Positions 2,893-12,630 of a stretch of 24,754 nucleotides of DNA are shown piece after piece (positions within the stretch are counted from its first letter, which is position 1; each line of letters opens with the position of its first letter). Source of the stretch: a virus; the IMG/VR virus record IMGVR_UViG_3300025601_000113, positions 1-24,754 of that record, one strand, 5' to 3'. Made by a program: the position numbers and the translations under genes. The notes below the pieces were generated by a model, which saw only the letters and a list, made by a program, of their open reading frames with translations, did not search any database and had not been told where the DNA came from.

Positions 2893-2904
2893 ATATAGTA
2901 TAAT
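2876..2904 (+). promoter_or_regulatory. Promoter TTAACA-17-TATAAT
   Basis: The -35 TTAACA (2876-2881) lies in the terminator loop and the -10 TATAAT is at 2899-2904, with a 17-nt spacer. Transcription should begin near 2911. AAAGGAG (2914-2920) then serves the GTG start at 2927 with 6-nt spacing. Confidence 0.7.
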
Positions 2905-2926
2905 TAAATACTGAAAGGAGTTCATT

Positions 2927-3142
2927 GTGAAAAAATGTGTATGGATTACGAAACATCACAGAAAACCTAGCTCACTTGGTGGTGATAGTTCTAGTAGAAA
3001 CATTTCACATCTACCAGAGAATCAACATCGAGCGTGGCACGTTCTGTTTTCTAATTTAACGCCCGAAACTATTTGTGCGTTAATCAACGAAAAATATATT
3101 GACCCTGATTATAGGTTCGTATGCAAAAGGAGTTACAAATGA
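2927..3142 (+). CDS. Small His-rich conserved protein (KHHRKP...HRAWHVLF family)
   Basis: This 71-aa protein starts with GTG, preceded by AAAGGAG. It contains KHHRKPSSLGG, then N-x-S-x-x-P-E, HRAWHVLF and a DPDYRFV end. From memory, small proteins with this HHR...GG...N.......HRAWH.LF layout are frequent in Patescibacteria genomes and their phages. The spaced His/Asn residues resemble a degenerate HNH-type fold, but a nuclease function is not established. It overlaps the next gene by ATGA, so the two are translationally coupled. Confidence 0.75.
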   Translation: MKKCVWITKHHRKPSSLGGDSSSRNISHLPENQHRAWHVLFSNLTPETICALINEKYIDPDYRFVCKRSYK

Positions 3143-10262: not shown

Positions 10263-11032
10263 AAAATTACTGTTTGATTATTTTTGGTTTTTTGTAATGC
10301 ACTAGCTAGTTTCATCCATTTTTCCTTTAGGTCGTAAGGAGAAGTTATGTTTGGATAAAAATCTTTTCCATTTGTTTGTGGAATTAGTTTTATAACTTTA
10401 AGGACTTTGTCTAATCCATACTCATCAACAAGAAAGTCTGCACAAGCTCTTTGAGTTTTGTTTGCGTAATATGTTTTATTCTTAGCATCAACTTCTTCAA
10501 AGGCTTTAATGACTTCTGCTCCTAAAACATTAAAGTTCTTTACCCGCGATTTATCGCTCTTCTTATCCTTTACTATACTTACCTTCCCTTCCCTTACCTT
10601 ACCTAACCTAGGTTGACGAGACGTTAACGTAACGTCAACGCTCTCCAAAGTGAAGTGTCCTTTGGGTATTTCGACAGAACGGTCATTATCTGTGGTTGTA
10701 TAAGAACCATTACTTCTGATGAATAAAGATTGCTTTAAATTGAGGTATTGAGTCTCTTTGTAAATGTCTTTTCTTATAAAATTATTGACCCTCCAATGCT
10801 TAATAACACACACGCCATCTGTGAAAGGAATTATAAATTTTTTGGCTGATAATAATTTCAAATCGTCATCTTGTGAACCAATACTTCTTGCTATTCTTTT
10901 TGGACTAGACACAAAACCATCATCATCAGCTCTTGCGTTCAAATGAAAGTACAAGAGTTGAGAACTTTGTGGCATATCAAGAAACGCATCTGTATCTATC
11001 ACATCCAAGCTAGTCATTCTTCTTTGAGCCAT
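10259..11032 (-). CDS. Phage replisome organiser / replication initiator
   Basis: The protein has 257 aa from the chosen start. The N-terminal domain (about 1-95) reads MAQRRMTSLDVIDTDAFLDM, SSQLLYFHLNARADDDGFV, KRIARSIG then DDLKLLSAKKFI and CVIKHWRVNNFIRKD. This is the winged-helix N-terminal domain of phage replisome organisers, which bind the origin and load the host helicase. The C-terminal part (about 175-257), with QRACADFLVDEYGLDKVLKVI and a YPNITSPYDLKEKW segment, looks like a helicase-loading DnaD-type tail. The frame is open to an ATG at 11128, but the family starts at MAQRRM, and 11128 lies within a hairpin. I therefore chose 11032, leaving a structured leader of about 130 nt. There is no Shine-Dalgarno sequence; a small hairpin (11041-11057) sits just before the start. 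Confidence 0.8.
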   Translation of the reverse strand: MAQRRMTSLDVIDTDAFLDMPQSSQLLYFHLNARADDDGFVSSPKRIARSIGSQDDDLKLLSAKKFIIPFTDGVCVIKHWRVNNFIRKDIYKETQYLNLKQSLFIRSNGSYTTTDNDRSVEIPKGHFTLESVDVTLTSRQPRLGKVREGKVSIVKDKKSDKSRVKNFNVLGAEVIKAFEEVDAKNKTYYANKTQRACADFLVDEYGLDKVLKVIKLIPQTNGKDFYPNITSPYDLKEKWMKLASALQKTKNNQTVIL

Positions 11033-11074
11033 TTGTTTTACGATTAACTTATAATCGCTGTTGTTATCTTTTTC

Positions 11075-11153
11075 TGTGCATAGAACGGAATTGAATGAGT
11101 GTTTGCGACAACTCATAGCTTTCGCCATTCCATCCTATGCACAAAACGCAAAC
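11075..11153 (-). ncRNA. Structured 5' leader with pseudoknot, replisome-organiser mRNA
   Basis: On the minus-strand RNA, three nested stems form one long hairpin: TGTGCATAG (11135-11143) with CTATGCACA (11075-11083), GGAAT (11127-11131) with ATTCC (11087-11091), and ATGAGT (11111-11116) with ACTCAT (11095-11100). The apical loop holds CGCAAAC (11101-11107), which is fully complementary to GTTTGCG (11147-11153) just 5' of the hairpin, giving a 7-bp pseudoknot. It lies between the promoter (11172) and the start at 11032. A regulatory or replication role is inferred. Confidence 0.6.
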
Positions 11154-11171
11154 TATTTTTCCAGCAAAGAT

Positions 11172-11216
11172 ATTATACTACTTTCAAATAAAAAGTAATT
11201 ACCTACCTGTGGATAA
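11172..11216 (-). promoter_or_regulatory. DnaA-box promoter module, copy 3 (replication operon)
   Basis: TTATCCACA (minus strand, 11208-11216) is followed by GGTAG, a weak -35 (ATTACT) and a perfect -10 TATAAT (11172-11177), whose first base lies 39 nt from the first base of the box as in copies 1 and 2. The box also lies just upstream of the divergent plus-strand promoter. Confidence 0.75.
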
Positions 11217-11249: not shown

Positions 11250-11264
11250 AGTTATACAGGATGT

Positions 11265-11388
11265 TAAGAGCTAGGGTTGTTCTTGTGCATTTAAGCACAG
11301 TAGGTCTCAACGCATATAAAAAACGAAAATTTGATTAAATTCCCTCGCTAAGCAATCGGTCATACCCTAGTACCGACCTTAGCTCTTA
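11265..11388 (+). ncRNA. Structured leader RNA upstream of 11400 gene
   Basis: A perfect 9-bp closing stem joins TAAGAGCTA (11265-11273) and TAGCTCTTA (11380-11388). Inside are GTTG/CAAC (11276-11279, 11308-11311) capped by a TGTGC/GCACA hairpin (11284-11299), and a TCGGT/ACCGA hairpin (11356-11376). The loop of that hairpin contains CCCTAG (11365-11370), complementary to CTAGGG (11271-11276), so an alternative pairing or pseudoknot is possible. It ends 11 nt before the ATG. A 25-codon frame (11261-11338) overlaps it, but the pairing is more convincing than the peptide. Confidence 0.6.
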
Positions 11389-11399
11389 GTATCTTGAAT

Positions 11400-11873: not shown

Positions 11874-12038
11874 ATGTTACAATTAGAATAATAATATCAG
11901 AGGAATTAACACCGCCCTCCTATCGAGCCTAGCCAGGCCTAAAGGATAAACGTATCGAGTTACTAGATAGCCTACGATAAGCTGATATGAATAACTCCAA
12001 TCCAATAGCTTCCCCTACCCCTACCCGGTGTTCAAGCT

Positions 12039-12104
12039 TTACGCGTAGGCAAGTTATAGGCAATCCGTAGGTAATCCGTAGGTAAGTTATAGGTAAGTTA
12101 TAGA
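12039..12104 (+). repeat. 11-bp iterons upstream of small terminase
   Basis: Five to six head-to-tail 11-bp units follow the pattern YAAKYYRTAGG: caagttatagg (12050), caatccgtagg (12061), taatccgtagg (12072), taagttatagg (12083), taagttataga (12094), with a partial unit before. Repeats of about one helical turn would line up protein sites on one face of DNA. The rest of 11874-12159 has short inverted and direct repeats (for example TATCGAG twice) but no gene. Confidence 0.8.
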
Positions 12105-12123
12105 CAAGTTGTCTTTAATGAGT

Positions 12124-12159: not shown

Positions 12160-12630
12160 ATGGCAAGTTCACCTATGAGGTATAAGAAGTTCTTAGAAGT
12201 ATTACCAAAGCATAATTATGTGGTTACTAAGGCAGCTAAAGAGGCAGGGTTTTCAGAACATACCTCTAACACACAACAGAAAAGGATATTAGCATCGGCT
12301 TTAAGGTATGAGTTAAATAGTAGAGAGGAAGAAGCAAAGGCTAAGTTAGTAGATACAAGTAAGTTAAATATCAAGGAAGTTAAGACAATGGCAGAACGTG
12401 TCGGAATTAGTAAGGATGATTTGATGGAGAACATTAAATGGCTAGCACAACAGGAAAAAGACCTATCTACAAGGTTAAAAGTAGTTAAGGCACTAGCAAA
12501 GGAATACTCAGTTGATTTAGGTGATGAAGAACAAGGTAAAACAGTTGTACCTATATTGAATGTAACTGTTAAGGAACGCAACGATGGCTCAACCAAGCCA
12601 CCATATGACATACCACAAGAGAATGATTAG
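12160..12630 (+). CDS. terS: Terminase small subunit
   Basis: The 156-aa protein's N-terminal part (about 1-55) has RYKKFLEVLPKHNYVVTKAA, KEAGFSEHTS and a QQKRILASALRY helix, the helix-turn-helix of phage small terminases (resembling HTH domains that detect tandem sites). A helical middle (LDTSK-to-LSTRLKVVKALAKEY) for oligomerisation follows, with a disordered tail ending KPPYDIPQEND. It lies directly before the large terminase. TerS recognises the packaging site; the 11-bp iterons 60 nt upstream are a natural candidate. There is no Shine-Dalgarno sequence; the leaderless promoter supports ATG 12160. Confidence 0.78.
   Translation: MASSPMRYKKFLEVLPKHNYVVTKAAKEAGFSEHTSNTQQKRILASALRYELNSREEEAKAKLVDTSKLNIKEVKTMAERVGISKDDLMENIKWLAQQEKDLSTRLKVVKALAKEYSVDLGDEEQGKTVVPILNVTVKERNDGSTKPPYDIPQEND

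Follow-up and report, generated by a model that had tools for sequence, protein, structure and literature searches.

Leaders in which a hairpin loop is complementary to another leader segment are known from IncI/IncL plasmids, where pseudoknots of the repZ type control the replication initiator; the loop partner lies further along the leader, close to where the initiator begins, and has an antisense RNA as its competitor. The HK022 put RNAs and the EAR element are RNA structures at or near the start of a phage or operon transcript and can precede any downstream gene. The put RNA consists of two separate hairpins with conserved loops that bind RNA polymerase; to our knowledge it has no foot-to-loop pairing, and it is set apart from the phage leader treated here by this description and not by sequence. 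Covarying metastable helices have been discussed for hok and MS2 (PMC6733600). In the hok family (plasmid R1, metastable 5' hairpin) and in the leader of the MS2 maturation gene an early hairpin gives way to a more stable fold, which controls translation (PMC6733600). The tisB mRNA has a pseudoknot near its 5' end, and its start region cannot be reached by the usual route (PMC7708055).

The phage leader resembles hok and MS2 in its alternative 5'-leader helices that covary and, according to the predicted energies, in an early and less stable helix. It differs in that there is no sequence relation, the genes are different and the predicted early helix pairs the foot of the late helix with its apical loop. 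The tisB system is bacterial with a sequestered binding site, whereas most genes behind the phage leader are without one and the stem lengths vary greatly. Unlike in the repZ type, the loop partner is upstream and no antisense promoter was found. No Rfam 15 family matched above its curated threshold (the best weak match, E 0.43, is not meaningful), in agreement with the earlier note, which had recognized no riboswitch class, and literature searches gave no description of such an element. Since unrelated phages, whose genes mostly have no normal ribosome-binding signal, retain the layout in altered letters, the element has the look of a novel RNA control built into the transcript. The change of letters under a constant layout also makes sequence searches for it difficult and leaves it absent from Rfam.

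The window, meaning the whole 24,754-nt stretch of viral DNA analysed (IMG/VR record IMGVR_UViG_3300025601_000113), carries the element on the minus strand at 11153-11070. It is a long hairpin with a main stem, P1, two side hairpins, P2 and P3, and at its foot a segment, X, that can pair with the apical loop (X'). The features are, in order of transcription:

11208-11216, minus strand: DnaA-box-like site TTATCCACA, identical to the consensus, a short way upstream of the promoter region
11172-11177, minus strand: -10-like TATAAT with its end 18 nt upstream of X; transcription is predicted to begin near 11165
11147-11153, minus strand: X, GUUUGCG, the 5' strand that can pair with the apical loop (pairing search and covariation)
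11127-11146, minus strand: 5' arm of P1, UUUUGUGCAUAGGAUGGAAU (minimum-energy fold)
11117-11126, minus strand: P2 hairpin, GGC-GAAA-GCU (minimum-energy fold)
11095-11116, minus strand: P3 hairpin, AUGAGU-UGUCGCAAAC-ACUCAU, with X' in its loop (minimum-energy fold)
11101-11107, minus strand: X', CGCAAAC, apical-loop strand, 7-nt complement of X
11070-11091, minus strand: 3' arm of P1, AUUCCGUUCUAUGCACAGAAAA, no T run after it (minimum-energy fold)
11033-11069, minus strand: A-rich stretch without Shine-Dalgarno sequence, with a 7-bp hairpin (CGATTA..TAATCG), reaching the start codon
10259-11032, minus strand: DnaD-like helicase loader or replisome organiser, 257 aa, first gene of a minus-strand operon

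P1 starts directly after X (11146-11127 paired with 11091-11070) and encloses P2 and P3. The nested stems described in the earlier note are all present, with 9 bp (UGUGCAUAG at 11143-11135 with CUAUGCACA at 11083-11075), 5 bp (GGAAU at 11131-11127 with AUUCC at 11091-11087) and 6 bp (AUGAGU at 11116-11111 with ACUCAU at 11100-11095), and so is the 7-bp pairing of the loop (CGCAAAC, 11107-11101) with the 5' flank (GUUUGCG, 11153-11147). Two parts were absent from that description, a U4:A4 extension of P1 and P2 (11126-11117), which creates a three-way junction in the window leader. The minus-strand fold has an energy of -42.4 kcal/mol against -24.7 +/- 3.3 kcal/mol in shuffles (z -5.4, 0 of 200 as good); the plus strand of the same stretch gave a z of only -2.0. 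The folding program cannot score pseudoknots. The combination of X:X' and P1 outscored 200 of 200 dinucleotide shuffles, and a chance fold is ruled out by these two shuffle tests. There is very little doubt that this is a real, conserved leader RNA.

The replisome organiser starts at 11032, as had been proposed. The phrog_5708 match to replisome organiser (E 1.1e-61) begins at residue 33 of the 289-aa open reading frame, PHROG profiles align from this residue, and in-frame stops are found 1-20 codons upstream of the initiator start in seven relatives. These stops and the profile start exclude a coding extension of the 289-aa frame, which is not conserved upstream of 11032; conservation there was one of two grounds on which the leader was to be rejected, the other being a lack of compensatory changes in relatives. 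The structured and conserved leader precedes a DnaD-like replisome organiser. The TATAAT at 11177-11172, accompanied by no convincing -35 hexamer, makes a transcript start near 11165 likely and gives a leader of approximately 133 nt, close to the 130 nt estimated before. In most members a -10-like box ends 18-34 nt upstream of X, so X is likely to lie near the 5' end. The argument is the consistent spacing and not the score, since promoter scores of single members are unexceptional compared with shuffles. When sites with no more than one mismatch to TTATCCACA were counted in the 200 nt ahead of X, a DnaA-box-like TTATCCACA or TTATCCCCA was found in 14 of 22 leaders, compared with 1.2 expected by chance. 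These sites, which lie a short way upstream of the promoter region, may indicate DnaA-controlled early promoters or a nearby origin. The DnaA-box-like site, promoter and leader form a frequent module on early operons, which could reveal how such phages link replication to the host.

On the plus strand of the window, the divergent start region at 11258-11395 folds as a rod (z -3.0) in which a 22-bp terminal stem encloses a 90-nt interior. A TATAAT at about 11246 stands immediately before it, and the rod is possibly a second leader or a small RNA belonging to the plus-strand operon. Ahead of the gene at 12160, the plus strand has short tandem-like repeats (CCGTAGGTAA / GTTATAGGTAA) at 12020-12110.

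The search with the initiator protein gave 34 loci. Where the initiator is inside an operon there is coding sequence upstream and no leader, while several loci with a leader before the initiator have the same layout (X, P1 and a loop complementary to X) in other letters. L002 and L003 are near-identical to the window and add no variation. The pairs of the other loci are:

L004, found by protein search: X GCCUUGCG, X' CGCAAGGC
L011, found by protein search: X GCUUUGCG, X' CGCAAGGC
L024, found by protein search: X GUCUUGCG, X' CGCAAGGC
L013, found by protein search: X CCGCCAA, X' UUGGCGG
L005, found by protein search: X CUUUCC, X' GGAAAG, looser fit
L280 (the same as L060), recovered by profile search: X ACCUUGCG, X' CGCAAGGU
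L338, from the search with a different initiator family: X GCUUUAC, X' GUAAAGC, near-perfect stem of 17-18 bp

A further pair of differing letters among the relatives is GCCAGCGAC/GUCGCUGGC. L338 was found through protein homology only, and it too has both X:X' and P1, in yet other letters. L336 from the same search has no such leader, nor does Tenacibaculum phage JQ ahead of its initiator homologue. In most other initiator relatives (gut and lactic phage types) the gene is internal to an operon and is preceded by coding sequence instead of a leader, and two protein searches from other carriers gave only self or duplicate matches.

The seven pairs nearest P1 were compared in seven loci (the window, L004, L011, L024, L060, L013 and L338). 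All 49 cells are standard pairs and two-sided changes are found at all seven positions, so that the compensatory changes looked for in relatives do exist. When X' was exchanged among the seven loci, 34.6 cells were paired on average and 24 of 5040 permutations reached 49; this is the number expected if, as it appears, the only exchanges to do so are those between the three loci with identical X' and the window, whose X' is GU-compatible. In ten simple members a tool count found 97.5% of cells paired (0 of 500 shuffles), with two-sided change in four pairs; slid registers of this alignment were at most 60% paired. Most of its rows were picked by the pattern CTTGCG..ACTCGCAAGG and independent weight is therefore restricted to L338 and the outer pairs; the table of protein-found loci is the cleaner evidence of covariation. 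The window itself was noticed through its complementarity; the scan from which L241b and L247b first came has complementarity as a requirement. Compared with dinucleotide shuffles of the upstream sequence of each locus, the combination of X:X' and P1 had a p of 0.005, the smallest attainable, in the window, L024, L060, L241b and L013, and of 0.01 in L004. An explicit search for X:X' and P1 misses L011 and L005 as it demands an exact complement and a short linker.

The pattern CTTGCGN15-45ACTCGCAAGG was found at no fewer than 120 viral loci. Among the matches listed, approximately 14 have a strong stem that is bounded exactly by the two arms (z -4.6 to -8.5); all others are at z -2.8 or weaker. 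A narrower pattern gave 27 viral loci with one additional member, L163. A pattern of this kind matched 40 sites in 84,980 cellular genomes, and the stem is absent from all of them. The element precedes several early operons, including some that do not begin with the initiator, and some phages have two copies with different pairings. In one phage (G007) the copy with GCCAGCGAC precedes the initiator and the copy with CCCUUGC a different operon; in a second (G012) the copy with ACACUUACGC precedes an initiator from a different family and the copy with CCCUUGCG a further operon. Where a phage has two copies, each pairs with itself at -8 to -17 kcal/mol and the two pair with each other at -2 to -6 kcal/mol, which argues that the leader acts in cis, and this is very probable. 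In L117, L114 and L065 the copy ends in a terminator-like T run with no obvious early gene after it.

The carriers make little use of Shine-Dalgarno sequences. Their excess over chance is mostly between -0.12 and about +0.15 (G010, G014 and G011 have a modest excess), compared with a median of +0.28 in loci with chance matches to the pattern and +0.36 to +0.61 in initiator relatives with other leaders. In the window and contigs G002-G024, Shine-Dalgarno sequences are found on 3-12% of genes in most, near chance. The low use points to a host with unusual translation initiation, for which Bacteroidota or Patescibacteria would be plausible guesses.

X:X' has 7-10 bp and P1 has 16-28 bp or more. 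In simple members X is 0-1 nt from P1 and X' begins approximately 3 nt into the loop. An A-form helix of 16 bp is about 45 Angstrom long, and by this geometry the foot strand would not reach the loop with P1 fully formed. Because X abuts P1, X:X' and the full P1 should largely exclude each other in simple members, for which the word pseudoknot may be a misnomer; we consider such mutual exclusion in vivo rather probable. The linkers of junction-type members (L005, possibly L013) are longer or weak and would let both helices form; coexistence is possible only in members of this type, such as the window. There both helices might coexist briefly or as a strained pseudoknot. The predicted energies are -8 to -27 for the X:X' hairpin and -21 to -56 for P1, and the predicted minimum is X:X' until 5-19 nt of the 3' arm exist and thereafter P1, by approximately 2 to 25 kcal/mol.

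The steric exclusion and the predicted energy order together lead us to prefer a bistable leader. The tentative reading is a cis-acting 5' leader of phage early operons in which two interlocked, competing pairings time the access of ribosomes. X:X' would form once the loop has been transcribed while P1 would wait for its last-made 3' arm; X:X' would first delay P1, and the much more stable P1 would later replace it. As long as X:X' is held, the 3' arm of P1 just upstream of the start codon would be single-stranded and would admit ribosomes, which in these phages would enter mostly without a Shine-Dalgarno sequence. Closure of P1 would remove this landing stretch and the leader would cap the amount of initiator made per transcript. 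Blocking of translation, suggested in the earlier note, is plausible; the timing of ribosome access as such is put forward with some reservation. P1 ends about 0-45 nt before the start codon across members, and the effect on ribosomes may therefore differ among them. The element gives a concrete RNA in phages that translate mostly without Shine-Dalgarno sequences and bears on how the doses of early proteins are set. More speculatively, and rather doubtfully, it may represent an undescribed virus-only leader class, restricted to phages whose host group makes little or no use of Shine-Dalgarno sequences. The foot-to-apical-loop helix and the long stem would then be a folding timer that meters early proteins and is tied to the host DnaA via the promoter box.

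A stable pseudoknot, with X:X' and P1 present together, could instead be a platform for S1 or 30S standby or a shield against decay of the 5' end, without any switch. The tisB mRNA requires its 5' pseudoknot for binding of S1 and 30S (PMC7708055), the carriers are mostly without Shine-Dalgarno sequences, and the junction or linker in the window, L005 and L013 could permit both helices. The three-way junction of the window could fold P3 back so that X:X' lies beside P1, and the platform, although unlikely, is therefore a serious rival. However, a stem of 16-28 bp with a linker of 0-1 nt leaves no room for X:X' in simple members, and the length of P1 varies widely with no matching change in the linker.

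An element acting on transcription, either an attenuator or a processive antitermination RNA that opens early operons, is less probable. In its favour, the element opens various early operons, as many as two in one phage, a T run follows P1 in some copies, and distant initiator relatives in Shine-Dalgarno phages have another leader with a terminator-like end and a covarying loop pairing. Against this, the window leader has no terminator-like site (a G+C-rich hairpin followed by a T run), most gene-proximal members lack the T run, and no unpaired letters of the kind read by RNA polymerase are conserved across all members.

The frequency of DnaA-box-like sites and the initiator being often the first gene might suggest a part of the replication origin, with the transcript as primer or a DNA hairpin beside the box. 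This is improbable, as some phages have two copies, the element also precedes recombination or unknown operons, and the leaders of rep genes in L060, L039 and L144 have no box. Still more unlikely is regulation by a trans-acting antisense RNA that targets the leader in the manner of plasmid copy control, for which the frequent replication initiator downstream and the loop CUCG/CUUG could be counted; we take the latter to resemble the YUNR U-turn of antisense target loops, which would be the contact point. No consistent opposite-strand promoter was found among 21 members, and two copies in one phage share no sequence. A riboswitch or other ligand sensor, the latter suggested in the earlier note, has a structured leader and a complementary loop to its credit but is not supported and very unlikely, since no unpaired core is conserved as ligand binding would require and the only recurring sequence, the pairing itself, is replaced wholesale in some members while pairing stays.

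Other structured leaders are found in distant relatives of the initiator, and no homology to the window RNA is claimed for them. In twelve loci from Shine-Dalgarno-using phages (L256, L257, L258, L262, L263, L269, L271, L273, L275, L278, L279 and L289) a different leader occupies approximately 130 nt before the initiator. Its hairpin loop pairs with a junction and is followed, just before the start codon, by a terminator-like stem and a T run. Covariation supports the loop pairing, as 17 cells have two-sided change (0 of 500 shuffles), no Rfam match was found for this leader, and it looks like an attenuator. In L260, L264, L270 and L255/L286 the loop of an upstream hairpin forms a kissing pair with the apical loop of a terminator-like hairpin (GGUCAAG/CUUGACC, GAGCAG/CUGCUC and GUGCAAG/CUUGCAC). 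In L274 an int-alpA RNA of Rfam (2903-2984, plus strand, 44 bits) is found directly upstream of the DnaD-like initiator.
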